Shown: positions 2,418 to 30,020 of the stretch, piece after piece | Position numbering within the stretch: position 1 is the first letter of the stretch | Layout: each line of letters opens with the position of its first letter | DNA from: a virus | Length of the DNA stretch: 37,552 nucleotides | Direction: 5' to 3' (one strand) | IMG/VR virus record: IMGVR_UViG_3300044631_000507 | Coordinates: 1-37,552 of that record | The notes under the pieces: generated by a model | Databases searched by the model: none | The model's input: the letters and a program-made list of their open reading frames with translations, nothing else | What the model was told of the DNA's origin: nothing | Made by a program: the position numbers and the translations under genes

Positions 2418-3812
2418 TTAGAAGATGAAGCCTTCTGTTTTCAATCGCTTACCAAATTTAGAATTATCGAACATCGGAGCATCATCTTCTTCTTGCTTAC
2501 CCGAGTCCGATATGTTCTTCTGGGCGGATTGCTCAACATCGTAGAATTTCATTCTACTGGCATCAAGCCCAACAACGAACCGCTTGTACATGTTTGGATC
2601 GCCGTACCTGTTCTTTAGCTGTTTCACGAGTACTTGATTAAGCTGGTCCAGTTCCTCTGTACGAATCAATGCAAGGTACAAATCTAAGGAATGTACCAAG
2701 CCAATTGATTCTGACGTATCAGTCATCTCAACATCCGAACTATCAATACCACCTCGGTTCAACTGTGTGGCAGTTAGAATGGGAAACTTGTATTCTTGCG
2801 CAATCGCTCGAATCTCCTCGGCGATGCTCTTGATAATCGTATATGAATTTGCATTGGACGAATTCCTAATACGCTGAGACGAGCAGATATTTAGGTAGTC
2901 GATAACAACAAGATCTGGGATGAAGTTTTTCTTTGCCTTCAGTTCCTCAATCAATGCCCGGAAATGTCCAGCGTGTGCGGATCCGGTAGGATATTCCTTG
3001 ACAACCAATCGCCCTTGCGTCTTGTCACGAATGCGCTGTACTCTGCTATCGAAAGTAGCCTTATCAAGACTCCTTAGATTTTGAATGGGTGTGTTGAATA
3101 GATTAGCATCAATACGTTCCGCGATGCGCTCTTCACTCATTTCCATCGTGATATAAAGAACGTTCTTACCCTGCATCAACGTGGCTGCGGATATGTGACA
3201 CATCATGAGACTCTTACCACCACCCGTTTTACTGGCAATTGCTGTTAGAGTAGACTTACGTAGCCCCACTCCTCCGGTAATTCGGTTCAGTAGATCAAGA
3301 TCAAACTTGATGCCTTCTTCTTTCTTGTTATAGAAGTCATAACGAGCATCGGAATCTTCCAAGTAGTCATGCCCGACTTGCATATCGAATGTAACAGCAA
3401 GTGCTTCCTGCAACAAAGACGGAATTGCGTCCTCTGTGTGTTTAGTGTCGTTACCCTCGATAATTTGAATGCTATTTAGGATTGCAATGAATACGGCTCT
3501 TTTCTGGAAGAATTTTTCCGTTTCATGCAACAACCAATCAGTATTCTTTTCGTTGTAAACCAGCCCATTCAACAGTTCTGGGATCTCTTTTGCTTCCTTC
3601 TGGGAGATGTCTTTTCTGTTAAGAACTTCAATCTCAATAATGTCCTTTGACGCTAGCTTGTTGTAATCAGAGAAAAACTTGATAATCTCCTTTACAATGA
3701 CTTGATCATTCCGAGCCTCGAAATATTCTGCCTTAATAAAAGGCATAACCTTTCGAGTGTAATCCTCATCAAAAATTAGACCAGCAATAATCTTGTCTTC
3801 TAAACGCATCAT
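2418..3812 (-). CDS. 41: Replicative DNA helicase, DnaB-like (gp41)
   Basis: 464 residues, close to the T4 gp41 length. The N-terminal third is the helical collar domain; the RecA-like motor starts near residue 165. Walker A is SKTGGGKS at about 194-201, with MEMSEER following as in DnaB helicases; Walker B is the LVVIDYLNI strand near 300. The C-terminus is the tail used for primase contact. It should unwind DNA 5'-3' on the lagging strand as a hexamer with primase and the 59-type loader, neither of which is in this window. It lies downstream of uvsX and two small genes. Its start ATGATG overlaps the stop of the preceding gene. Confidence 0.96.
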   Translation of the reverse strand: MMRLEDKIIAGLIFDEDYTRKVMPFIKAEYFEARNDQVIVKEIIKFFSDYNKLASKDIIEIEVLNRKDISQKEAKEIPELLNGLVYNEKNTDWLLHETEKFFQKRAVFIAILNSIQIIEGNDTKHTEDAIPSLLQEALAVTFDMQVGHDYLEDSDARYDFYNKKEEGIKFDLDLLNRITGGVGLRKSTLTAIASKTGGGKSLMMCHISAATLMQGKNVLYITMEMSEERIAERIDANLFNTPIQNLRSLDKATFDSRVQRIRDKTQGRLVVKEYPTGSAHAGHFRALIEELKAKKNFIPDLVVIDYLNICSSQRIRNSSNANSYTIIKSIAEEIRAIAQEYKFPILTATQLNRGGIDSSDVEMTDTSESIGLVHSLDLYLALIRTEELDQLNQVLVKQLKNRYGDPNMYKRFVVGLDASRMKFYDVEQSAQKNISDSGKQEEDDAPMFDNSKFGKRLKTEGFIF

Positions 3813-4111
3813 TCCTCGCTTGTTCCGCCTTTGAATACCAACTCTCGCTTTGAGATCTGCTCAGTGATAAGATGTACAAGATAGTCTCCCAGCATCTTTT
3901 CAAATGCAGGTAGCCTATCAGCACCGGGCTTCTCTCCTTCAATTATATCATATTCAAAAGATAGAGTCGCGCTTTCTTGCTTGTCGTCTTCATTGAATTT
4001 TACCTCACCATACTTGAAAGATAGATCAGAAAATTCGGAGTTGATAAATCTAATCTCGTATTCGGGTCTACCGTTGATTTCGATTTCTTTGATAGTTGTT
4101 TCAAACGTCAT
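3809..4111 (-). CDS. Small acidic phage protein, unknown function
   Basis: 100 residues starting MTFETTIKEIEING. A longer reading from 4222 exists, but its extra 37 codons lie wholly inside the 4101-4685 gene and look like out-of-frame sequence. The ATG at 4111 has an AGAGGAAC ribosome site and overlaps the upstream gene by 11 bases, the usual packing here. The protein is acidic, with alternating charged and aromatic residues suggesting a beta-rich fold (EYEIRFINSEF, ATLSFEYDII), and a helical C-terminus. It lies between the zinc-ribbon gene and helicase 41. I do not recognise the family. Confidence 0.75.
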   Translation of the reverse strand: MTFETTIKEIEINGRPEYEIRFINSEFSDLSFKYGEVKFNEDDKQESATLSFEYDIIEGEKPGADRLPAFEKMLGDYLVHLITEQISKRELVFKGGTSEE

Positions 4112-5762: not shown

Positions 5763-7112
5763 TCAATTGAAAAAATCTTCTAGCGAACTACGTTCTTCTG
5801 CTGACCAACCTAGCGGATCTAGCATTGTCTGCATAGATTCAACAAAGGACTTCTGAAACATTGTATCCTTATCCACGTAGTCTGTCAACCCAAATTCTAA
5901 AGGTAACTTATCAATGAAGCCAATGACATTCTCATGGAACTTATTTGGGAGTCTAAGATAGACAAACTTCATCTTAGATCCTTCTTTGATAAACTCATAC
6001 TTACCCTCAAGCCCAAGTTTCTTGATGTAGTGATTGTACAGCAGCGCACCGCGGACATGAATAGGGCACCCCTTTGTATATATTGGGGAACCCGAGTATT
6101 GCTTGAGTCCGTTCACACCACGCGGGAATGCAATAGCCTCGATTGGTTCGATAAGGTACTTTGCCTGATACTCCGCAATAAACTTCTGTACACTAGACTG
6201 CGTACCATACAGAACCTGCTTGACCCCTGCCTTGAGTGTAGTTCTAACAACAGCGGGAGTAGATGAACGAACCAGTTCCAAACCAGTAACCTTAATCTTT
6301 GGTTCCTTATACTGCACACCCTCTGAGTTATGAACGCTCATGGCATACCGCTTCTTTGCAACAAAGATGGCAACATCCGCGATAACCTCACGCTTCATGA
6401 TCAACTTCTGTTGATATGCATTCATGTAGTCGGCAAGTTCTTGATACGACTTGTTGATCACCTTCTGCATAACCTCGCCGGCAAACTTATCAACAAACTT
6501 TACGATGTCCTCGGTAGACTTAGACCCCTGAGTCTGTTCAACTACCTTTGCCAGTGTAAAGTAACAGGAATCGGTATCATTGTAGATACAGTAATCTACA
6601 TCCTTGGTCTTACACGCCTTGTTTAGAAACTCATTTAACGCACGTGATACCCAACGGATAGCCAACTGACCAGATGTAGTAATACCCTCTGCCATTCGAA
6701 GGTCGTAGTATCTAAAGTAAGGGCTAGCAAGTGCTCCATAAACCGAATTCATCTGAATCTTGCGAGCCATTTGTAGGTTATAGAGCCTACTAATTTCAGG
6801 AACCAATTTAGGATCCTTTGTGGTGTCATACTCTTGCTCTAACGTCAACATCTGCTTCTTGAAGATGGCTCGCTCACTAAAAATACGATTTACTTGAACG
6901 GGGATAAAACCTTGTTTCTCTTTTCTGTATAACGAACCATTAGCTGCCAGGGAAACATTTGCTAAATTTAGCAATGTGATAGATTCATTGCTCAACTTCT
7001 TGTCCAAAAGACAGTCAACACCATATTGCAATTCTTTTTGGAATTGCCCTGTTGTTATAAACGTCCTAAGGCTATTCAACTCTTCCTTCGACAAATTCTT
7101 TATATTCTTCAT
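5763..7112 (-). CDS. 43: DNA polymerase B-family, C-terminal fragment (gp43 part 2)
   Basis: 449 residues carrying the second half of the T4 gp43 palm, fingers and thumb. SLYRKEKQGFIP starts the recognisable homology near residue 60; motif B is KIQMNSVYGALAS at 118-130; motif C is DTDS at 179-182; KKRYAM follows. The exonuclease domain and motif A are on the separate fragment at 7928-9244. The frame is open upstream to 7163, but the ATG at 7112 has an AGAGGCG ribosome site, and that site and start lie inside the 3' end of the HNH gene, overlapping it by 41 bases. The two halves must meet as proteins to make an active enzyme, as reported for split gene 43 in some Aeromonas T4-like phages. Confidence 0.93.
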   Translation of the reverse strand: MKNIKNLSKEELNSLRTFITTGQFQKELQYGVDCLLDKKLSNESITLLNLANVSLAANGSLYRKEKQGFIPVQVNRIFSERAIFKKQMLTLEQEYDTTKDPKLVPEISRLYNLQMARKIQMNSVYGALASPYFRYYDLRMAEGITTSGQLAIRWVSRALNEFLNKACKTKDVDYCIYNDTDSCYFTLAKVVEQTQGSKSTEDIVKFVDKFAGEVMQKVINKSYQELADYMNAYQQKLIMKREVIADVAIFVAKKRYAMSVHNSEGVQYKEPKIKVTGLELVRSSTPAVVRTTLKAGVKQVLYGTQSSVQKFIAEYQAKYLIEPIEAIAFPRGVNGLKQYSGSPIYTKGCPIHVRGALLYNHYIKKLGLEGKYEFIKEGSKMKFVYLRLPNKFHENVIGFIDKLPLEFGLTDYVDKDTMFQKSFVESMQTMLDPLGWSAEERSSLEDFFN

Positions 7113-7854
7113 ATGTTTCGCCTCTTGCTTTAAGAGCCCTTGTGATGTTACCACCCAAACCATGTTTGCGGTAAAGTGTACCTTTATTATAAAAGGCTTT
7201 TAGTTTTTGTGCAAATTGTTCTTTTGACATTGCTCGCCATTTTTCTGGCGTTTTCTTGCGACTTTCAGAAATAGATTTTATTGTTTCTGAAGCATGTGGT
7301 CCGTTTTTGTAACCGCCGGGTCGATGGTTTATTCCTGGTAAACCTTGGCTTCTTCTTTTTTCTATGTTTTGATTTCTTGCCAACCTAGCAGTTTCAACAA
7401 TCTCTTGTTTTGATTTTTGAGAGCCCATGAAAGATTTCCCTTTCATGTCTTTCCTTGCTTTCCCTTGTTTTGATTGAGAGATTTTCTCTCTCGATTCATT
7501 TGTTTTTGCTGGGTTGTTATCGCCTTTGATTGCAGTTGAGTTTATTCTTCGCAACTCTTCTAGAACTCTAGAATTGATTAGTATGTTCCTCCCAGAAACT
7601 TTTACTGTTCCCATCATTCTATATGCTTTACCCAATTTTATGCTATAAGAATGTGTTTCGCCATACCGTTTCTTTGCAATAGCATAAAGTAATCTGTGCA
7701 ATACAAAATGCTCGCGAGCAGTAACAACTATGGTTTTATCATTCTTACCAAAAATACATTGTGGAAAATAATGATGTTTTTCAGTATAACCTTCAACTGA
7801 TGCTCGATTCTTTGCTTTCTTCACTAGCGATGTGTAAATTTTTAGGTAGTTCAT
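7072..7854 (-). CDS. HNH homing endonuclease inserted in DNA polymerase gene 43
   Basis: 260 residues. The HNH nuclease core is near residues 20-55: EKHHYFPQC, then an asparagine loop (GKND), then REHFVLH. Downstream, residues 110-200 hold repeated basic segments with the SREKISQSKQGK pattern of NUMOD3-type DNA-binding modules. It lies between the two halves of gene 43 and has its own late promoter and a hairpin ahead of its start. Only 73 bases separate it from the first polymerase half and its end overlaps the second, so there is no room for a group I intron core. It is therefore a free-standing homing gene that has split its target. Confidence 0.92.
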   Translation of the reverse strand: MNYLKIYTSLVKKAKNRASVEGYTEKHHYFPQCIFGKNDKTIVVTAREHFVLHRLLYAIAKKRYGETHSYSIKLGKAYRMMGTVKVSGRNILINSRVLEELRRINSTAIKGDNNPAKTNESREKISQSKQGKARKDMKGKSFMGSQKSKQEIVETARLARNQNIEKRRSQGLPGINHRPGGYKNGPHASETIKSISESRKKTPEKWRAMSKEQFAQKLKAFYNKGTLYRKHGLGGNITRALKARGETYEEYKEFVEGRVE

Positions 7855-7863
7855 TTGTAATCC

Positions 7864-7926
7864 TTTGACCTTTAGTGCCTTTATTATTTATAAAATACTG
7901 GCGCGCTAAAGGCATTGAAGGTCAAA
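7864..7926 (-). promoter_or_regulatory. Late promoter in the loop of a hairpin before the HNH gene
   Basis: The minus strand carries TATAAATA (plus-strand 7885-7892), a perfect T4 late promoter. It is flanked by a long inverted repeat: 9 bp (7864-7872 with 7918-7926) plus 8 bp (7876-7883 with 7907-7914) with a 3x3 internal mismatch. The mRNA 3' arm runs into the AAAGGA ribosome site of the HNH gene. Read-through RNA from the polymerase gene should hide that site; RNA from the late promoter lacks the first arm. Confidence 0.75.
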
Positions 7927-7927
7927 A

Positions 7928-9244
7928 CTACCTTGATTCTAGCTCATTGTCAATATGTTCCAACAATTCCTTTTCAATTACATAGCAGTCAACAATGGTT
8001 TCTGGGCTGATGTTTGCCCATTGCATAAGCGAAGGATAAAGAGACTGTAAGTCAAAAGATACAACCCACTTATGCTTACCAATGATAGGTTCCTTAACAT
8101 ATGCACCCTCAAACTGATCTCGTTGATTACGCTTGGCATTGGGAATAACAATCTTCTTTTTCTTGAGCTCGTTGTAGATCAACGAGTCCCAAGAACGAAT
8201 CTGGCTAAACACTTCATCAGGAACAATCTTGCTATCGTATGCAATAGTCAACGCCAACTCAATCAACTTCATCTTATCTTCGAATGCCTTGACAAGACTT
8301 ACGTCGATGATGTTATACATGCAGAAGTGATCCCAGTCCTTTGTGTAGTGCTCCTTAAATGTACCATCGTACTCTAGCTTCTTCCTACCAAGCTCATCAT
8401 TCGCGATATTATCCAGCTTCCAGGACTCACGACCACCATATGTGTATTTCTTCATCAGATCAATGTAGTCTAGTTGATTAACACCAATAATGTCGTATAC
8501 AAGTTGTTCGTCGTTATTGATCTTTACTCGCCTATCCCTAACAAGGTTCCAGGGACTCAGCTTGTTCGCAAAGGAATCACCCAGCACTCTATTGATGCGA
8601 TTCACGAGATACGGAATGTCAAAGAACTGACTGTTCCAACCCGAAACAACATCAGGGCACAGTGACTGCCAATCGGTCACGAATGTCTTGAGCATATGGT
8701 ACTCATCGACGTGGAGTGACTTACGCACATATTTCGCGCCAATTCCGTACTTATCGAGCAACACACCATCTACATCAAAATCTTTTGCCGCGTAGACAAC
8801 ATACGATTTTAGAATGCTGTCGTACAAAGTAATGATAAGAACTTCTTCGTTGGCTTTATCTACATCCGGGAATCCGTCTTCCACGGCAGTCTCGATGTCG
8901 ATGATGTTGACCCGAGTATGTTCAATGCTAAACTTAATCGTACCTGGATACTCTTCCGAGATGTACTGAGTAACCCAATTCGTCATTCCAAAGATTTCAA
9001 ACCCGTGAACATCCTTGTACTGTTCAATGAAGTCCTTGCAATCACGAATACTACCGGGATTGATTTCATACAAAGGAACACCGTAAAGATCTTTCCATTC
9101 TGTATTTTGTTTTGCCGTCTTCTTTGCGTTGGAAAACAACACAGGGTAAAAGTCATCTTTACGATTGAAGCGTGAGCCGTTCTCATCGTATCCACGACTT
9201 AGAATTTTGTTGCCATAGTTAGCAACGTAGGTGTAAGTATCCAT
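7928..9244 (-). CDS. 43: DNA polymerase B-family, N-terminal fragment with 3'-5' exonuclease (gp43 part 1)
   Basis: 438 residues. Exo I is NIIDIETAV with D116 and E118; Exo II is WNSQFFDIPYL near 215; Exo III is YNIIDVSL near 320. Polymerase motif A is SFDLQSLYPS near 405, followed by NISPETI, after which the protein ends about 20 residues later. T4 gp43 continues here without a break, so motifs B and C are on the separate 5763-7112 fragment. The start at 9244 is set by AGAGGAGAAGT just before ATG; 14 extra codons upstream lack a start of this quality. Expression is from the promoter at 9306-9334 through a hairpin-bearing leader. Confidence 0.95.
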   Translation of the reverse strand: MDTYTYVANYGNKILSRGYDENGSRFNRKDDFYPVLFSNAKKTAKQNTEWKDLYGVPLYEINPGSIRDCKDFIEQYKDVHGFEIFGMTNWVTQYISEEYPGTIKFSIEHTRVNIIDIETAVEDGFPDVDKANEEVLIITLYDSILKSYVVYAAKDFDVDGVLLDKYGIGAKYVRKSLHVDEYHMLKTFVTDWQSLCPDVVSGWNSQFFDIPYLVNRINRVLGDSFANKLSPWNLVRDRRVKINNDEQLVYDIIGVNQLDYIDLMKKYTYGGRESWKLDNIANDELGRKKLEYDGTFKEHYTKDWDHFCMYNIIDVSLVKAFEDKMKLIELALTIAYDSKIVPDEVFSQIRSWDSLIYNELKKKKIVIPNAKRNQRDQFEGAYVKEPIIGKHKWVVSFDLQSLYPSLMQWANISPETIVDCYVIEKELLEHIDNELESR

Positions 9245-9268
9245 ACTTCTCCTCTTTGCGAAGGTACA

Positions 9269-9289
9269 GGTGTGCCATATAGGCACACC
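9269..9289 (-). promoter_or_regulatory. Hairpin in gene 43 leader, possible translational operator
   Basis: A perfect 8-bp stem (GGTGTGCC and GGCACACC) with a 5-base TATAT loop lies about 10 bases upstream of the strong ribosome site of the polymerase. T4 and RB69 gp43 repress their own translation by binding a leader hairpin. This one differs from the T4 operator in loop sequence and does not overlap the ribosome site, so the role is inferred from position only. Confidence 0.5.
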
Positions 9290-22497: not shown

Positions 22498-24222
22498 TCA
22501 GGCGGTTGTTGCCATTACAGAATAATCACCTTGTTTTTCGAATCTAATAACAGATCTAAAACGATCTTGTAAATGATCACCATGTGATATGGCGAATATG
22601 TTATTACCATCATGGGCTAATTGGTTGATCATATTAATCACAATATCAGAGTTGGTGGAATCTAATCTACCAACCAATATCTCATCTAGTATTAGAAGAT
22701 TACATGATGCGCTATTCTTTATCTTGGCAATATGCCGCCATGCAAATAACATTGCAAGGTCAATACGAAGAGCCTCGCCTGCGCTGAATGAATCATAAGT
22801 AAACTCATCGCGATGTCTTGATTTGATTACTTCGTTAAACTGCTCATCTAAATTGAACTCAATAAACAATTCTAACTCAGTGAGATACTTGTTGATGAGT
22901 TTGTTTATGATGGGGAGATACTCTCGAATGATAGCAGTTTTGATACCAGTATCACGAAGCAATACACTTGCGCCTTCTTGAAGTTGTCGTTTGTCGGAAA
23001 GTTCCTTCTTTAGATCAACCAAGGATAGAACACTACGAGCCACATCTTTCAACTCACTCTTGGGTACATTGATGTTAGTGTGGCTCTGTTCTTGAATCCT
23101 GCTAAGTTTATCCAACAGACCCATCTCTTGTGTTTGTAGCAAAGAGATGCTTGTTGTTAGGCTCTCAATTCTAGAGTTGTTCTCGACCATCTTGTCCATA
23201 TGAACTTGCATCTCGTCAATACGAGACTTGATACGTGCTCGCATTGTCTTGAAATTTTCCAGTTTTTCCTGATTGCTCTCCAAACTAACATTCAGATCAT
23301 TGATCATCTTCATCTTGTGTTCGCCAGAGATGCCTTGGTTACAGGTAGGACATGAGTCGTTACTGTCAAAGAAATCACAATCGTGCTGTAGTTCATTATG
23401 CTTTGCCTCTGTAATAGCAACACTCTCGGCTAACTTATTTGATGCATCAAAAAGTTCTTTTAGCTTCTTTGTTTTATCACTTAGCTCTTTGTTCTCGCCT
23501 ACCTTTTCTTCTACCTGAACTTCATGTGTCTTAATAGTGGTAGTTATCTCTTTGATTTTTTCGTTTATCTCAACTACCTCATCTTGTTGCTTTGTTGAGA
23601 CCACCTCAATGAGGCGCTTTAGTCCCTCTGCCTTTTCCTTGAGAGTCTTGATCTCAGAGTCAACACGAGTAAGTTCTTCCTTGGTGTCAATGATTTGTTG
23701 CTTTAGCAGCTGATTCATTGTACTAAACACACCAATGTCAAGAATGTCTTCAATTACTTCTCTACGTGCAGCTGCCGCGAGCTGCATAAAGGGTGTGTAA
23801 GAGGTGCTTCCCAGAATAACGATCTGAGTGAATGTCTTGAACGACATCATGAGAATTTGCTGCTCAAGGACGTTCTGGTAGTCTTTTACTGCTGCATCTT
23901 GACTCAATAATTTACCGTCACAAAAGATGTCAAACTTTGCGGGCTTGATACCCCGTTCAATTTTGTAGTGCCTGGCGTTTACAATGAACTCAACAATAAC
24001 CTCACACTGTTTCTGATTGATAGAATTTACTAATTGCGGTTTGTTGATGTTTCGGAATGGCTTGCCGTACAACCCAAAGCATAGCGCATCTATCAATGTG
24101 GACTTACCCGCACCCGACTGTCCTTGAATAAGAGTTGTGGGGCTCTTGTCAAGCAAAATAGTTGTGCCGGCGTTTCCTGTAGAGAGAAAGTTTCGATAAA
24201 AAAGTTTTAAGAATAGAATCAT
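22498..24222 (-). CDS. 46: Recombination endonuclease subunit gp46 (Rad50/SbcC-like)
   Basis: 574 residues, near T4 gp46 (560). Walker A is GQSGAGKST near 34-42; the Q-loop region QIVILGS near 132; two coiled-coil arms flank the zinc hook CPTC near 290; the ABC signature is FSAGEALRIDLA near 475; Walker B is NLLILDEIL near 510 with the H-loop AISHGDH near 550. With gp47 it resects DNA ends for recombination-dependent replication and host DNA breakdown. The start overlaps the gene 47 stop (ATGA). Confidence 0.96.
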   Translation of the reverse strand: MILFLKLFYRNFLSTGNAGTTILLDKSPTTLIQGQSGAGKSTLIDALCFGLYGKPFRNINKPQLVNSINQKQCEVIVEFIVNARHYKIERGIKPAKFDIFCDGKLLSQDAAVKDYQNVLEQQILMMSFKTFTQIVILGSTSYTPFMQLAAAARREVIEDILDIGVFSTMNQLLKQQIIDTKEELTRVDSEIKTLKEKAEGLKRLIEVVSTKQQDEVVEINEKIKEITTTIKTHEVQVEEKVGENKELSDKTKKLKELFDASNKLAESVAITEAKHNELQHDCDFFDSNDSCPTCNQGISGEHKMKMINDLNVSLESNQEKLENFKTMRARIKSRIDEMQVHMDKMVENNSRIESLTTSISLLQTQEMGLLDKLSRIQEQSHTNINVPKSELKDVARSVLSLVDLKKELSDKRQLQEGASVLLRDTGIKTAIIREYLPIINKLINKYLTELELFIEFNLDEQFNEVIKSRHRDEFTYDSFSAGEALRIDLAMLFAWRHIAKIKNSASCNLLILDEILVGRLDSTNSDIVINMINQLAHDGNNIFAISHGDHLQDRFRSVIRFEKQGDYSVMATTA

Positions 24223-25269
24223 ACTTTTAGGTTCACTGCCTCTACGTAAAGTTGTTTCATGTATGTGGACAATTTTTCTCGGTCAACATCAACTTCCGCG
24301 GACTTTATGTAATGATGAAGAATTGATTGTGTGTCTTCTATATCTATAGACTCGTCCATATCACTTGCAGTCATGTCAGAGACATCTTCAAGAATTTTGA
24401 TATCATAAGCTCCACAATTGTATACGCGATCAAGGAAGGTGTCAAACTTATAGAAGTCTGTCTTTTTCTGTACAACAATCTTTAGAAACTTTTCCTTGAA
24501 TTCTGATACGTCAATACCTGCTGGGTCATAGTTGGTGTCATCGTACACGAATCGCTCAAACAACGTATAGGGATTCTCGATGAACGTTAGTTCCCTTGTC
24601 TTCGTATCAAATATGTGAAAGCCCCGCGGATCGTTGTAATCCATGTGCGTAATTTGATATGGGTTGCCAAGATAATGGATATTGGACCTACTATTACGAT
24701 GATGATAATGACCAGAGAATACCATATCAAATCTATTAAAAAGTCCAGCATCAAATCCTTCATGCGACTCCATTCCTTTGTACATTGAAAACCCCGATAT
24801 CTCAAGATGTCCGCAGCAAAGATCTGCTTTAGCGGTCTTTAGAAAATCCATAGACTTTGCATAGTTGTCTGAGCAAATCCAGGGTAGCATTAGAAAAGAT
24901 ACACCATGAACATCAATAACCTCGGGATCCGAGATTGGGAGGATGTTATTGTACTCCGCGAGAAGCAACTCGGGAGAATTTATATCCAAGGAATTACGAA
25001 GAGCGATATCGTGATTGCCAACAAGAACATGCATCTTGTAGTCCCGCATTGGCTCGAAGAAGTATTCCTTGCTTCTTTTGAGAGAGAAGTAGTCAATGTA
25101 CTTTCTTCGATCAAAAAGATCACCCAGATGGAGAACTGTATCTACCTTGTATTTCTTTAGAGTAGGAAAGAATGTGTTGGTATAGAACTTTTCAAAGAAG
25201 TCGTGGAAGATGTGTCTACCGTCACGCGCACCAAAAATGGGTGTCGGTAATTATTGCAATTTTTGCCAT
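24219..25269 (-). CDS. 47: Recombination endonuclease subunit gp47 (Mre11/SbcD-like), apparent +1 frameshift near the start
   Basis: The phosphoesterase core is intact from codon 11 on: HFGARDG, HLGDLFDRRKYID, VLVGNHDIALRNS, CGHLEISG and FSGHYHHRNS give the metal motifs. The first ATG with gp47 sequence (25269, MAKIAIITDTH) follows an AAAGGAGGG ribosome site and encodes the first metal pair D-x-H. But the run after CA at 25233-25238 has five T where four are needed, so the MAKIAIITDTH part is one base out of frame with the rest. The in-frame ATG at 25049 would lose the catalytic N-terminus. Real mutation, sequence error or +1 slippage at TTT-T are all possible. Confidence 0.85.
25236..25269 (-). 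repeat. Direct repeat copy B: rebuilt start of gene 47
   Basis: 34 bases matching copy A (26013-26046) at 33 positions. It encodes MAKIAIITDTH with AAA for lysine 3. It lies immediately after the stop of the homing gene and is joined to the body of gene 47. Confidence 0.9.
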
Positions 25270-25270
25270 T

Positions 25271-25972
25271 TTACAGACCCTCCTTTCTAAAATATTTACA
25301 GTTGTTGAAATGCCATCTCTTAGCACCGACCTCTTTTGAACAATGAGGACAAACGTATTTTATACCTGCAGTATTGTGTACTACCTCGCCAGATATAAAT
25401 CTTGGGTCGTCTTTAGAGACATGAAAAATTCTACCATCTTTATCTCTAACAGTAACTTTACCTTTGTTTACGTGAACTAGTTCACCACTAACATATCGGG
25501 TATCATCTTTGCGTACTTGCATAGTATTGCCGTTTGAATCAACAACAGACACCATACCATACGTTTTAGATAAGACACCAAAATTGCCTTTTGATGGATT
25601 TTTTTCTAACATTCGTTTGGACGAAGCTTTTGCAAAGTTTGCAGCCCTTTCAGATTTCTCTGAAAGCCAGTGCATATCACCAGAATGGTTTGGTGGCTTA
25701 CCCCCTCCCAAAACCAGATTGTAGCACAATGGGTCTTGGAGTACAACCTCAGTCACTAGTTTAGATTCTAATGCAAGAGCGTCTTCATAGCAGTCAAAAA
25801 ACTCAATGATCTCTCTATTGAAATTTTCTTTACCATAATGCTTTATCGCATCACCAAGCCTAGTTCCTGACCCCAAATACCCATCATTTATGTTTTTTGT
25901 TGCATGCACACCAATGTAAAATTTACCGTTTATAAGGTTTGTTGTTTTGTAGACGAAGTAGTATTTTTTCAT
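25271..25972 (-). CDS. GIY-YIG homing endonuclease inserted at the start of gene 47
   Basis: 233 residues from the ATG at 25972 with AGGAGGCAAAA before it. The GIY-YIG domain is at the N-terminus: FVYKTTN, GKFYIGVHATKN, then Y-L-G-S-G-T and E-N-F-N-R-E-I. Two tandem copies of a beta module follow near 140-195, each of the form V-x-V-x-D-x-x-G-N/R, KDD-x-R-Y/F, SGE-x-VH. The end is a zinc finger, YVCPHC...HFNNC. It separates gene 55 from gene 47 and sits between a 34-bp direct repeat of the gene 47 start. Its 3' end carries the ribosome site for the rebuilt gene 47. Confidence 0.93.
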   Translation of the reverse strand: MKKYYFVYKTTNLINGKFYIGVHATKNINDGYLGSGTRLGDAIKHYGKENFNREIIEFFDCYEDALALESKLVTEVVLQDPLCYNLVLGGGKPPNHSGDMHWLSEKSERAANFAKASSKRMLEKNPSKGNFGVLSKTYGMVSVVDSNGNTMQVRKDDTRYVSGELVHVNKGKVTVRDKDGRIFHVSKDDPRFISGEVVHNTAGIKYVCPHCSKEVGAKRWHFNNCKYFRKEGL

Positions 25973-26012: not shown

Positions 26013-26046
26013 AATGGGTGTCGGTAATTATTGCAATCTTTGCCAT
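26013..26046 (-). repeat. Direct repeat copy A: original start of gene 47, now an 11-codon dead end
   Basis: ATG at 26046 overlaps the gene 55 stop (TAATG) and reads MAKIAIITDTH then TAG. It is the native gene 47 start, cut off after codon 11 by the homing gene insertion. It differs from copy B at one silent base (AAG against AAA). Confidence 0.9.
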
Positions 26047-26564
26047 TACTGATCCTCCATTAGCTTTTCCAATGAAGTAGTCTTTGCCTTCTTGGGCTTC
26101 TTTTCTAACTTCTTCTCAAATGCCTCATGGTCAAAGGAGTTGTTTGTCTGTACAAAGCTCATGAAGTTCTGTGATAGCTCTGCGTCATCAAACTCTTGCT
26201 GCTCAAATGCCTCGAAGGGCATATCTTGAATCAAACGATGCTTGATGTAGCTTTGGCGCTTCTCTCGTTGAATACGTCGAATGAAAGCAAAGTAGCAGAT
26301 CTGTGTGTAGTATGCAAAGGGATTGCTACTCTTTGCTGGATCAAAGTTTGTGAGGTACTGTAAGCAATTTTCAATGCCATCACTAACAAGCTCTTCTTTG
26401 TATGAGTAACCATAGAAATTTGGTCGTGATGCAAACCTCGTTGCAATGTCGAGAATGCACTTTCCAATGTACTCAGGCACACGAGCATCAGGATTTGTTT
26501 TTAGCTTTTCCTTGTAATCAATGATTGCTTGTAAGAATTGTTTGTTGTCAACATAATTTGCCAT
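26046..26564 (-). CDS. 55: Late-transcription sigma factor gp55
   Basis: 172 residues. NYVDNKQFLQAIIDYKEKL matches the T4 gp55 N-terminus (NYVNNKELLQAIIDWK); the core EELVSDGIENCLQYLTNFD and PFAYYTQICYFAFIRRIQRE is the sigma region-2 equivalent that reads TATAAATA. The C-terminal acidic/hydrophobic tail ends SLEKLMED, close to the clamp-binding tail that meets gp45. It explains the late promoters listed in this window. The start at 26564 has AAAGGAG; the longer reading begins with GTG and lies over the ribosome site. Confidence 0.95.
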   Translation of the reverse strand: MANYVDNKQFLQAIIDYKEKLKTNPDARVPEYIGKCILDIATRFASRPNFYGYSYKEELVSDGIENCLQYLTNFDPAKSSNPFAYYTQICYFAFIRRIQREKRQSYIKHRLIQDMPFEAFEQQEFDDAELSQNFMSFVQTNNSFDHEAFEKKLEKKPKKAKTTSLEKLMEDQ

Positions 26565-26582
26565 AGTAAGCTCCTTTAGCAC

Positions 26583-26610
26583 AGTATAACACCATATAAC
26601 AGATAGTCAA
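26583..26610 (-). promoter_or_regulatory. Early sigma70-type promoter for gene 55
   Basis: Minus strand: TTGACT (26605-26610), 16-base spacer, TATACT (26583-26588). It lies just upstream of the gene 55 ribosome site, so 55 can be made before any late transcription. Confidence 0.72.
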
Positions 26611-26625
26611 AGATAGACCAAAAGA

Positions 26626-26654
26626 TTGACAGGCTTTCGCCGCTGTCCTATAAT
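26626..26654 (+). promoter_or_regulatory. Consensus sigma70 promoter antisense to uvsW
   Basis: Plus strand: TTGACA (26626-26631), exactly 17 bases, TATAAT (26649-26654): a perfect consensus. It points right, into the 3' end of uvsW, which is on the minus strand. The spacer holds the inverted pair GACAG/CTGTC. No gene with a ribosome site follows on the plus strand until the homing gene at 28323. Confidence 0.72.
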
Positions 26655-26677
26655 CACCGTGTACCTGGATGATGATA

Positions 26678-28177
26678 CTAAAACTTAATTGTTTTGATAT
26701 CGAATGTGAACTGTTCGGCTTGATACGTCTCGATACGTTCCTTAAGGTGCTTCATTGTATGGTTCAACTTTGACTTTATAGAAAAGTTGTCTGCTATATC
26801 ATACAGTTTGCAAGACTCTTTACCTTCCTTAAGACGCAATCCTCTACCAATAGACTGTAGATTCCGTATCTTACTCTTTGTTGGACTAGCAAAAATTATG
26901 TTCTCAATGCTGGGAATGTTGATTCCAGTTGATGTTGTTCCATAAGAACAGATAACAATTGCGTCATCATGTGTATCTAGTACCTTACGAATACGTTCTC
27001 TTTCCTCTGTGGTTACTTCGCCTGATATGTAGAACAAAGGTCTTTCACCACAAAGTTCTTTTGCTATGTCATATAAAGGCTTGCCTTGCTTCTCCACGAA
27101 CTGAAACAGTATAAGAGTGTTACCCTTTGAAGCCTTTGCAAGTTTGACTATAAATCTGTTTCTCTTTTCGTTTGAAACAATGTAGTCAATCTCTTTCTGG
27201 TAGTCGGCACCCTTAAGAAGTTTTCTTGTCTCCTCGTCATAATCTAGTAGTAGGCACTTGATGTTTAGTTTTACTACCTGATTAGCATCCATCAACTCCT
27301 TTGTTGTTATCACCCGATACACGGGACCAAAGGATCCCTCTAGTGATAACTTAGACACCTTAGCATCTTGTATTGTACCTGTAGTACCCAGACGATATCG
27401 TGCTCGAATGAGCTTAGAGGAGATTTGTTGCAACGAGTTTGACGCAAACCTATGCGCTTCGTCACCAATGTACACATCCCACTCTTTGTAGAAGTCCAAC
27501 GCCTTCTTGTTCTTTGTCATGGAATGGATTGACTGCCAGGTTGTTATGAGAACAGGTTTGTCTGTTTCTTTATCTTTACCCGAGTACAATTGATGACAAA
27601 ACTCGTCTGCATCCCAATCATCTTCTGATGCGTAATCTTCAAAGTCACTGAACATCTGTGATACCAATGATGTTGTTGGTACCATGAGTACAATGCGTCT
27701 GCCAAATTCGAGATGCCAACGAACAAAGACATAAATGATCGCGGACTTGCCCGAGCTAGTTGGGGATAAAGCCAACATTCGTTCTTTGTTAATTGCTCTG
27801 TGTATTGCGTCTACTTGGTAGTCCCGCAGCTCAATCTTCTTGCCCTTAGTGTGTATATTGAGGCAATCAATGAAATGTCGTACTTCTTCTAAAGACACTT
27901 TCGAGTCAGAATGTACTTCTTCAAAAGACGATTTGCACTCGTAACCGTTGTCCTTTGCAAACTTCTGTACGTACTCAAGCAACCCAACAGGCAAAGTCTT
28001 TCGGTGTATGTCAAAAAGTTTGGCTTTTCCATCCCAGATTTTTGCCTTGAATGTTGGCATAAACTGATGCCCAGGAACGGGAAAGGTGAAGAAGTCGCAC
28101 AGTTCCTGCTCTATGCCAAAGTCATCTGATGTTACTTGTAATGTTGCTTCGTTCAGCTTGGAGATCACTAGACTCAT
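26678..28177 (-). CDS. uvsW: UvsW SF2 helicase
   Basis: 499 residues, T4 length. The N-terminal 110 residues are the small substrate domain (FPVPGHQFMPTFKAKIWDGK). Motif I is SPTSSGKS near 139-146, motif II GDEAHRF near 239, motif III LGTTGTI near 265, motif VI QSIGRGLRLKEG near 447. It unwinds R-loops and regresses or branch-migrates forks and junctions, shifting T4 from origin to recombination-driven replication. It is made late in T4; here a late-promoter-like CTAAATA and hairpin precede it. Confidence 0.96.
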   Translation of the reverse strand: MSLVISKLNEATLQVTSDDFGIEQELCDFFTFPVPGHQFMPTFKAKIWDGKAKLFDIHRKTLPVGLLEYVQKFAKDNGYECKSSFEEVHSDSKVSLEEVRHFIDCLNIHTKGKKIELRDYQVDAIHRAINKERMLALSPTSSGKSAIIYVFVRWHLEFGRRIVLMVPTTSLVSQMFSDFEDYASEDDWDADEFCHQLYSGKDKETDKPVLITTWQSIHSMTKNKKALDFYKEWDVYIGDEAHRFASNSLQQISSKLIRARYRLGTTGTIQDAKVSKLSLEGSFGPVYRVITTKELMDANQVVKLNIKCLLLDYDEETRKLLKGADYQKEIDYIVSNEKRNRFIVKLAKASKGNTLILFQFVEKQGKPLYDIAKELCGERPLFYISGEVTTEERERIRKVLDTHDDAIVICSYGTTSTGINIPSIENIIFASPTKSKIRNLQSIGRGLRLKEGKESCKLYDIADNFSIKSKLNHTMKHLKERIETYQAEQFTFDIKTIKF

Positions 28178-28179
28178 GA

Positions 28180-28213
28180 AAATACCCAGAATTTTTACAC
28201 TCTGGGTATTTAG
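28180..28213 (-). promoter_or_regulatory. Hairpin with late-promoter-like element at the uvsW start; also bidirectional terminator-like
   Basis: An 11-bp perfect stem (28180-28190 and 28201-28211, 10-base loop) ends a few bases before the uvsW ATG. The minus strand reads ACTAAATA across the first arm (plus-strand 28206-28213), keeping the TAAATA core of late promoters. There is no ordinary ribosome site outside the hairpin. The GC core with A/T flanks could also stop transcripts from either side. Confidence 0.6.
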
Positions 28214-28250
28214 TCTACGTTCCTGCCACGAATTTTGAAAACTAGTATTT

Positions 28251-28258
28251 TATAAATA
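28251..28258 (+). promoter_or_regulatory. Late promoter for the plus-strand GIY-YIG gene
   Basis: TATAAATA, a perfect T4-type late promoter, 72 bases before the ATG at 28323. The same element stands at the same distance before the minus-strand GIY-YIG gene. Confidence 0.78.
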
Positions 28259-28335
28259 GAAATGAACCTCGCGGGACTGCAATCCCCAGGCTCTCTAGTC
28301 AACACCACTAAAAGGAGTCTTTATGACCAGCTCAT
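28251..28335 (+). repeat. Inverted repeat, left copy: shared homing-gene leader
   Basis: These 85 bases (late promoter, untranslated leader and first codons) are identical in reverse complement to 30760-30844. Identity ends a few codons into the reading frames, where silent differences begin. Confidence 0.92.
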
Positions 28336-28997
28336 TTATTTATTATGTATATGCTTATATACGATCAAAAGATACAGCAACTGCAAAAGCCGGAACACCA
28401 TATTACATTGGAAAAGGAAAAGGTAACCGTGCATATAGAAAACATAGTGTACCTGTACCCAATAACAGAAACTATATAATTTTTTTAGAAACTAACTTAT
28501 CGGAAGTTGGTGCGTTAGCCTTAGAGAGATTTTATTTGAGATGGTGGGGTTGCAAACACTCTGGTGGAATTTTACGGAACATTATTGATGGTTATGGCTC
28601 AGGTGCTACTAATGTTGGGCAACACATATCAGAAACAAAATCTTCTAAAGAATGGAGAGAAGGTCCTGGTAAAATTGCAGGTGAAAAAATTTCAAAAGCA
28701 AAATTGGGTGTTAAGTTTACCGAAGAGCACAGGAGGAAAATTAGTGAATACCAAAAGAATAGAATTGTTTCTGATGTAACTAAAGAAAAAATGTCAAAGT
28801 CAAGATCAGGTATAAAGCAGTCAAACTCTCATAAAGAAAACATCCGCAAAGCAAACATAGGTCTTAAACTAATATCTAAAAAAGATAATCCACTAGAACG
28901 AAAAAAGGTCCCTGCCAATGAACTTCAAACATTTCTTTCTAATGGGTGGGTCCTAGGTGCACAAGGAACATCTCACTTGTCATTACGCAAATCTTAA
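28323..28997 (+). CDS. GIY-YIG homing endonuclease (only plus-strand gene)
   Basis: 224 residues with ribosome site AAAAGGAG. GIY-YIG motifs: YYVYAYIR at 7-14 and [14 protein letters not shown] near 25-38, with [10 protein letters not shown] and RWWGCKH completing the fold. The C-terminal half is a string of basic NUMOD3-like modules ([25 protein letters not shown] and two more). It lies between uvsW and uvsY, opposite to all neighbours, and its last four bases overlap the uvsY end. Its leader and N-terminus match the gene at 30065-30772. Confidence 0.92.
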
Positions 28998-29431
28998 CTG
29001 CCCGATAAAAACTTACTATACTCTATAAAATTCCTGATAGACCAATCTCTGCCTTTTATCTGCTGAAGAATAGACTCTAGCTGATACTGCATGTTCTCCA
29101 TGTACTGAATCTTCAGTTTCACTTTTATGATGTCCGAGTCGCTATCAAGTTTTTCGCCCATGGTGCTCTTTAGTGGCTTTAGACCCTGGTACTGCTTTAG
29201 ATTGTGCTCTTGTAGCTCTTCCTGAGTGAGCTCGCCGTTGTAATACCTTGTCTTGAGCTCTTTTAGTTCAAGGTAGTCAGATGACAATTTAATTAGCTTG
29301 CTCTTGCATTGCATTAGCAGTTCAAGGTACTTCTGATGCAAGTTAGCAGAGCGTAGTGTTTCCTCTGTTAGCTTGTTTCGATCAATGCCGCAATCAGCAG
29401 CCCATAGCTCATTGATTTGTTCTATGTTCAT
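28994..29431 (-). CDS. uvsY: UvsY recombination mediator
   Basis: 145 residues (T4: 137). It is helical with [21 protein letters not shown] and [20 protein letters not shown] matching the T4 UvsY pattern (ARLDYYSG; VLKVDTSLQYW), and [12 protein letters not shown] at the C-terminus matching SRGFAIKHIQDM. It loads UvsX on gp32-coated single-stranded DNA. The adjacent uvsW fits the T4 order. The start has no clear ribosome site but directly follows a 10-bp hairpin. Confidence 0.92.
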
Positions 29432-29432
29432 A

Positions 29433-29463
29433 GTTACAATACGACTAAAAATTGTATTGTAAC
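29433..29463 (-). promoter_or_regulatory. Hairpin abutting the uvsY start codon
   Basis: A perfect 10-bp stem (GTTACAATAC and GTATTGTAAC) with an 11-base loop ends one base before ATG. It contains no late promoter and no T tract, so it is neither the masking device nor a terminator seen elsewhere. It may control uvsY translation. Confidence 0.55.
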
Positions 29464-29469
29464 AGACAA

Positions 29470-30003
29470 CTAGGTTAAGTCAAGTTTGAAATAAGAATAC
29501 TCTAAAGTTAAACTTGCTGTTGCGTATGGCACATCGGTGTTAGTTGAGCTAAATTCCACACCACCAAGTTGAGTGGGATAACAATCAACAAATGAGAAGG
29601 TTCTTACGGGTGTGTTATTTGGACCAAGAACAATTAGCCTTGCGTCGGAATAGTTGTTTGCAAGTTCTGATGATTCTGAAAAACCTCTCAACATGTTCTC
29701 GGTTGTGTATTGAGTGGAAGTCTCAGGAAATCCCAGTCCCTTCATCCAATTGTAAACTTCAACCCAGTTGTTCATCTGCCCATCAATAGCAAACTGCAAC
29801 TGTAAGTCACTAAACTCAAGTCTCTCTGATGGGATCTTGATAACAGATAGGGGGGTTGGAGTTTCTAAACCAGCTAAACTAATGCTGGGTAGGTTTACTT
29901 GTTGGCAGAAGAAGGTTACCTTTGGTAAGCGTTCAATGCTAAGAATGAACCCATTAGGGCTCAAGAAATTAAGATCACTTGAAGGACAAGAAAGTGTAGC
30001 CAT
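29470..30003 (-). CDS. Tail-tube-like virion structural protein
   Basis: 177 residues. The layout NGFILSIERLPKVTFFCQQVNLPSIS at 17-42, then PSERLEFSDLQLQFAIDG, WVEVYNWMKGLGFP and a C-terminal strand series ending ASLTLEYSYFKL is that of the gp19-type tube fold (gp19: FQVEISYLG, ALPAGI, WTVTVMND, FEVTLALDYWE). A gene at this place after 23 in related phages is sometimes called gp3, the tail completion protein; I cannot exclude that. It has its own late-type promoter (ACTAAATA) and ribosome site GTAAAGGAAA. Confidence 0.72.
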   Translation of the reverse strand: MATLSCPSSDLNFLSPNGFILSIERLPKVTFFCQQVNLPSISLAGLETPTPLSVIKIPSERLEFSDLQLQFAIDGQMNNWVEVYNWMKGLGFPETSTQYTTENMLRGFSESSELANNYSDARLIVLGPNNTPVRTFSFVDCYPTQLGGVEFSSTNTDVPYATASLTLEYSYFKLDLT

Positions 30004-30020
30004 AAGATTTCCTTTACTTG

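Follow-up and report, generated by a model that had tools for sequence, protein, structure and literature searches.

A one-base insertion and candidate +1 frameshift site at the rebuilt start of phage gene 47, next to homing endonuclease genes

How can a phage make a full-length gene 47 product if the start of the gene and its body are set apart by one base? The question is raised by the window (the whole stretch of DNA analysed, a single 37.5-kb virus record). Its minus strand reads ATG GCA AAA ATT GCA ATA ATT ACC GAC ACC CAT TTT TGG TGC GCG TGA from 25269 to 25222. An earlier note, made from the sequence alone, had counted five T where four are needed after MAKIAIITDTH, and this was borne out: plus-strand positions 25233-25237 are AAAAA, i.e. 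a five-T run at 25237-25233 of the minus strand. Correct, too, was its statement that a stop follows four codons past the broken D-x-H, as the 0 frame ends in TGA at 25224-25222. D-x-H carries metal ligands in Mre11-type nucleases. When one base is skipped, the alternative frame gives FGARDGRHIFHDFFEKF... and stays open for 338 codons, to 24219. The features of the locus, all on the minus strand, are as follows.

22498-24222, minus strand: gene 46-like ATPase, the partner of gp47; it overlaps the stop codon of gene 47 (Pfam AAA_23, SMC_N, Rad50_zn_hook)
24219-25235, minus strand: body of gene 47, read in the +1 frame and encoding an Mre11/SbcD-like nuclease subunit (Pfam Metallophos, PF00149, E=3.3e-12; phrog_100, SbcD-like, E=6.9e-100)
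25221-25235, minus strand: five recoded codons, all synonymous, TTT GGT GCG CGT GAC versus TTC GGG GCT AGG GAT in the related contig L004 (codon comparison)
25222-25269, minus strand: rebuilt gene 47 start, 0 frame, MAKIAIITDTHFWCA then TGA at 25224-25222 (from the sequence)
25233-25236, minus strand: proposed +1 slip site TTT_T, with P-site UUU at 25236-25234, re-pairing on UUU at 25235-25233 and UGG in the 0-frame A site
25271-25972, minus strand: free-standing GIY-YIG homing endonuclease gene inside gene 47, between both start copies (Pfam and PHROG matches)
25279-25287, minus strand: strong Shine-Dalgarno (SD) site AGAAAGGAGG for the rebuilt gene 47 start, contained in the final codons of the endonuclease ORF (from the sequence)
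26013-26047, minus strand: left gene 47 start copy, MAKIAIITDTH closed by TAG, which remains of the original gene as a stump (repeat; blastn to the related contig L023)
26046-26564, minus strand: gene 55-like late sigma factor, ending in a stop codon that overlaps the original, left-hand ATG of gene 47 (phrog_234, late sigma transcription factor, E=3.8e-53)

The metallophosphoesterase domain and the adjoining gene 46 identify the body as the T4 gp47/SbcD nuclease subunit; a PDB sequence search with gp47 of L004 gave no match. The start had been called 'rebuilt' before, rightly: a 35-nt copy of it, 97% identical, lies 777 nt upstream (26047-26013) with the GIY-YIG ORF in between. The stump holds the first 11 codons of gene 47, and the rebuilt start is a second copy with its own start codon. 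The endonuclease matches SegE_GIY-YIG (PF19835, E=7.7e-7) and GIY-YIG (PF01541, E=8.5e-5), both above cut-offs, as well as the homing endonucleases of phrog_314 (E=3.2e-40). Thus a nuclease gene with a catalytic domain adjoins the insertion that the ribosome must pass, and the insert is absent from close relatives (see below). No tRNA genes were found in the window, and no Rfam element, group I intron or other, matched it at the gathering threshold. A group I intron was rejected on this ground and because both gene 47 start copies possess their own start codon.

Is the extra base real? An IMG/VR scan for the gene 47 start, allowing 0 to 4 free bases ahead of GGTGC, found a single further contig, L003 (IMG/VR 3300042321_001429), which has the same endonuclease cassette and likewise five T. 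The two sequences have 47 mismatches over 5077 nt, and L003 is therefore a separate assembly. Three near relatives (L004, L005 and L023) have no endonuclease at this locus and carry gene 47 in frame. In L004 the codons of the gene 47 body are identical to those of the window from the sixth to the last of 338; only the first five and the extra base differ. The ungapped blastn match of L023 to window positions 26013-30010 ends at 26013, so that the insert in the window starts exactly after CATT. L003 and L023 have two differences in common (codons 10 and 39) that the window lacks; hence the cassette is present in two gene 47 backgrounds. The same cassette joined to an L004-like body in the window and to the other background in L003 argues for its mobility.

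By the search used, a left start copy was found only in the window and in L003; a shorter stump was seen by eye in L050. At the very codon that receives the cassette in the window, L023 (at about 3996-4001) has TGC (Cys) and not TTC (Phe), which could be a cleavage-escape variant. In L004 the place of the cassette, between genes 55 and 47, is taken by a small unrelated ORF of about 200 nt (3735-3942).

The same one-base shift was found far beyond these relatives. The pattern I-x-x-D-T-H followed by TTT YGG NG matched 26 IMG/VR contigs, and in all 26 gp47 runs in the +1 frame to its end or to the contig end; the corresponding DQH pattern matched 33 contigs, with the +1 frame open likewise in 33/33. 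Together, 59 contigs from 55 datasets (L003 included) have a one-base insertion at the identical codon, and 59/59 continue in the +1 frame. An inserted A, C or G instead of T was found in 0 IMG/VR contigs. A one-base deletion, searched in the IITDTH form only, was likewise found in 0 IMG/VR contigs (the insertion pattern of that form matched 14). As the pattern used to collect +1 loci fixes TTT, evidence for a slippery site comes from the empty A/C/G control. In GTDB genomes, IITDxH-TTTYGG had six matches, none of them in gp47.

Genes with the +1 shift are a minority. In a first sample of 31 loci found with gp47 of the window, two have the shift (one more lacks a start); a distant one, L009, is 50% identical and has the same one-base shift. 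Among the best 80 loci matching an alignment of 12 gp47 proteins there is a single one. We also read 12 records of isolates (11 phages): Caulobacter phage Cr30 is +1, with CAT TTT CGG in the GenBank and RefSeq records alike, and the other ten phages are in frame. The deposited gp47 of Cr30 starts 105 nt downstream; the tryptic peptide across the shift, as derived from the sequence, would be VAILNDIHFGTR. Many +1 sites have just TTT before C (CACTTTCGG) and no long homopolymer. Before counting we left out L010 (no start), L132 (a copy of L014) and L154 (the same contig as L167), and isolates L077, L081 and L085 were excluded from the control set. On a tree of gp47 bodies with the first 20 residues removed (135 rows, 37 of them +1; four of the 41 +1 representatives were too short), the +1 label needs 23 changes, 13 of which are forced by well-supported branches. 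In Cyanophage Syn10 (HQ634191.1, 24698-25676) gp47 was matched in two pieces, with no annotated feature there; this could be either a frame change or a sequence error elsewhere in gene 47.

Purifying selection acts on the bodies of +1 genes as it does on those of in-frame genes. In pairs that are not independent of one another, dN/dS was 0.041-0.134 for 25 of 26 +1 pairs (the remaining pair, at 0.36, rests on 10 changes) and 0.007-0.175 for 80 in-frame pairs. The 0-frame N-terminus holds M-K-I/V-A-I-I/L-T/G-D-x-H despite varying codons. Both halves are kept as protein in 61/61 +1 loci, and none has a second lesion near the site. The extra base is thus kept in homologues that have diverged, and coding constraint acts on both frames, as is characteristic of a programmed +1 frameshift. 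The earlier note had inferred a working gene from the lack of decay, and the low dN/dS of the +1 pairs agrees with it; its suggestion that the phage lacks a catalytic gp47 N-terminus is contradicted by the same values and by the N-terminus and body being kept as protein in all +1 loci read. The third of its options, +1 slippage on TTT-T, is the one that fits, as far as the sequences can tell.

Matches of at least five bases to the anti-Shine-Dalgarno complement precede 39 of 41 +1 genes vs 20 of 92 in-frame genes; the link holds when independent pairs are compared (10.7 pairs to 0.1; median p 0.001). At the slip site, P-site UUU can re-pair to UUY in every +1 locus, and the 0-frame A-site codon is CGG in 32/41 and UGG in 9/41, the window having UGG. 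The Phe codon of in-frame loci is TTC in 24 and TTT in 49. Taken raw, the preference for CGG over UGG is strong (32:9 vs TTC:TTT of 24:49, p 5e-6); over independent pairs it is not significant (7.2 to 2.6, median p 0.23). No downstream RNA structure was enriched (mean z -0.21 for +1 vs -0.48 for in-frame loci). Since many sites have just TTT before C, we consider transcriptional slippage unlikely. A non-AUG restart at ATT, considered for the window, was rejected, as by inspection it is not common to CAC TTT loci, whose preceding body-frame codon is ACT. Beyond the SD core, a motif GGAG-N0-3-TC located 22 nt before the start codon was seen in 31/41 +1 leaders vs 3/92 in-frame ones; perhaps it reflects common descent of the cassette end.

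The +1 shift goes together with homing endonucleases. With nine endonuclease queries derived from the +1 loci themselves, endonuclease-like sequence was detected within 1.5 kb upstream in 41/61 +1 loci, ending 26-171 nt before the His codon, and in 1/114 in-frame loci (phiM12, on the opposite strand). For non-redundant loci, with a tail motif added to the search, the counts are 29/41 vs 1/97, the latter again on the opposite strand. Of 13 independent pairs on the tree, 7.5 support the link between endonuclease and +1 shift and 1.0 contradict it (median p 0.039, range 0.012-0.125). The 140 ORFs that precede in-frame genes matched 60 Pfam families, and the 25 most frequent of these include no GIY-YIG and no HNH. 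The intact endonucleases belong to at least two classes, GIY-YIG (the window, L052 and L057) and HNH (the kind of L063, L069 and L072, and L188). Other +1 loci have ORFs that share the C-terminal part but in which a nuclease domain cannot be recognised, or, as in L049 and L071, bare tails. For the tail-only ORFs of L064, L167, L176 and L055 neither Pfam nor PHROG gave a match, and they count as remains through C-terminal similarity to the HNH proteins of L069 and L188 alone. No endonuclease remains were found in 12 of the 41 +1 loci, Cr30 among them; these may reflect loss after fixation, or endonucleases unlike our queries.

In L071, L049 and L185, bare endonuclease C-terminal tails (GIDPTFRIGTNGP, KQHRGF and KKYYMNGVDPTTRIG) stand directly behind gene 55. 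Gene 55 and the endonuclease are often separated by a cytidylyltransferase-like ORF (L167, L169, L170, L178, L182, L189 and others); CTP_transf_like was matched in 11 of 78 ORFs before +1 genes, and also in 6 of 140 before in-frame genes.

From the anatomy of the locus, the recurrence of the shift, its association with endonucleases and the selection on the gene, as these are read in the sequences, we infer a cut site, an immunity, a slippage event and a direction of transfer. The explanation that we prefer, and consider probable, is a mobile cassette made of the endonuclease and the rebuilt start, in which the extra T and the recoding make the target uncleavable while slippage from UUU to UUY restores gp47. 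The endonuclease would recognise and cut conserved DNA around DxH-FG of an intact gene 47, the break position being marked by the stump ending CATT|. The right end of the break would be repaired from a cassette-bearing donor, from which a short stretch with recoded codons would be copied together with the start, its ribosome-binding site and the endonuclease gene; the left end would be joined without homology, leaving the stump. Extra base and recoding would protect the cassette's own gene 47 copy from cleavage. Ribosomes loading at the strong SD site would reach CAY UUU YGG, where the P-site tRNA-Phe would make a +1 slip (UUU to UUY) during the wait at a slow A-site codon, CGG or UGG. The predicted slippage product is full-length gp47 (MAKIAIITDTH-FGARDG...) and the by-product a 15-residue 0-frame peptide. 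Through break repair the cassette would spread to other phages, whose gene 47 would thereby acquire the frameshift site.

The main rival takes the shift for regulation: the strong SD site would over-express a harmful nuclease subunit, inefficient +1 slippage would lower gp47, and protection from cleavage would be irrelevant. We regard this as rather unlikely if it is to stand by itself, and it may hold together with the immunity reading. It accounts for the strong SD that accompanies +1 genes in nearly all loci and across independent pairs, and for the persistence of the shift at loci where no endonuclease remains. It leaves unexplained, however, the position of the base exactly at the break of the window's endonuclease (the stump at 26013) and the five recoded codons; moreover, the in-frame loci with SD matches of five bases or more manage without the +1 shift. 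If gene 47 were simply broken, the extra base would be a lesion from endonuclease cutting and faulty repair, with gp47 dispensable or supplied from elsewhere. The location of the base at the proposed break point is what such a lesion would predict, but the reading is highly improbable given the low dN/dS among +1 genes that have the shift in common, the preservation of both halves with no second lesion, the empty controls for A, C and G insertions and for IITDTH deletions, and the strong SD retained at the start.

Two further alternatives concern the start of translation and the data. We give very little credence to an internal start after the 0-frame stop, yielding a truncated gp47 that lacks D-x-H. 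In the 41 representatives the 0-frame stop lies 4-28 codons past the His codon, so that ribosomes terminate near the beginning of the body, as this reading would have it. However, the first ATG, GTG or TTG of the body frame has no common place in these representatives, being scattered from codon 2 to codon 99 (codon 62, counted from zero, in the window), and in most of them it is not close to the beginning of the body. The deposited Cr30 start is one of these, and the conserved 0-frame MKIAIITDxH with its SD site would be left unexplained. An error of sequencing or assembly at the homopolymer, which the earlier note had also listed, is almost certainly not the cause. It would suit a single-base difference in a T run of metagenome assemblies; against it speak the second contig with five T, 58 further contigs (59 contigs from 55 datasets in all) and one isolate, the many sites with just TTT before C, and the neighbouring recoded codons, which cannot arise by error. 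The cassette with an immune target and a compensating frameshift remains the explanation that we prefer for the window.

For T4-like phages at large, we lean, a little beyond even chances, towards recurrent selfish cassettes of this kind, each combining an endonuclease with a rebuilt 5' end of the target, a one-base immunity and a +1 shift at UUU_YGG. It is this shift of the ribosomes that would make the inserted base tolerable; nucleases of different classes would have converged on the solution or would exchange it, and homing would repeatedly have installed programmed frameshifting in an essential recombination gene.

Bonocora et al. reportedly described, in 2011, the T4 mobA/gene 60 case of a homing endonuclease with a 50-nt translational bypass. 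The resemblance is that a free-standing homing endonuclease splits a conserved replication or recombination gene of a T4-like phage, and that a downstream insertion, thought to be protective, is passed over by the ribosome (here by inference). The gene 60 insert was suggested to protect against a homing endonuclease (PMC5009743), and its 50 nt are bypassed at about 50% efficiency with the help of the nascent peptide and a stem-loop, an arrangement called unique to T4 gene 60 (PMC3014915). Unlike gene 60, our loci would need a single-nucleotide +1 slippage at UUU_YGG, in gene 47 and in many phages, and the neighbouring nucleases are of at least two classes, GIY-YIG and HNH. A gap of the gene 60 type (tens of nucleotides with take-off and landing codons) is not seen in the window, where the gap is 1 nt.

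The slip site resembles the UUU_CGN motif of influenza A PA-X and plant amalgaviruses, with an efficiency of 1-2% given for the PA-X type (PMC5052127). There, tRNA-Phe in the P site shifts its pairing from UUU to UUC while the A site presents an Arg codon of the type CGN; UUU_CGG is present in the same 32 of our 41 loci. The motif is known from eukaryotic RNA viruses, whereas ours are bacterial DNA phages; the window and eight other representatives have UUU_UGG. With UGG in the A site, the window would resemble the UUU_CGN type in action but stands outside it. Savior indels with compensatory frameshifting, found in herpesvirus thymidine kinase under drug selection (PMC5009743), are alike in that an indel escaping a threat is rescued by low-level frameshifting. 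They are unlike in that the threat here would come from a selfish gene, resident or competing, through its endonuclease, and that the indel has become fixed and been passed on over long times. Intronless homing by free-standing GIY-YIG and HNH endonucleases of T4-like phages, with cut sites said to be hundreds to thousands of bp away from the gene for the nuclease (PMC2988022), agrees in nuclease class, conserved phage gene neighbourhood and co-conversion of flanks; the break proposed here differs in lying at the insertion itself, with the start of the target gene rebuilt.

Literature searches on gp47 frameshifting, and on homing together with frameshifting, gave no report of frameshifting in gp47 among the papers listed. 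If the cassette explanation is true, it accounts for the origin of programmed frameshift sites: they would arise as a way to escape when a selfish gene cuts the DNA, and conversion would fix them. It would add a second case to gene 60 bypassing, far more widespread and with a simpler mechanism, which includes Cr30, a cultured phage of Caulobacter crescentus. In such genomes gp47 would be mis-annotated with its N-terminus missing, as it is in Cr30.

Other inserts were observed in the window. The DNA polymerase gene 43 is split (5763-9286) into an N-terminal half at 9286-7928 (phrog_262 positions 6-429) and a C-terminal half at 7163-5763 (phrog_262 positions 432-852). Between the halves lies an HNH homing endonuclease (7854-7072) of phrog_655, a family also located before gene 47 in L069 and L188. 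Another insert, at 28237-29018, is present in L003 and L023 and not in L004 and L005; its plus-strand ORF (28323-28997, phrog_15526) is, by eye, GIY-YIG-like with NUMOD3-type repeats.
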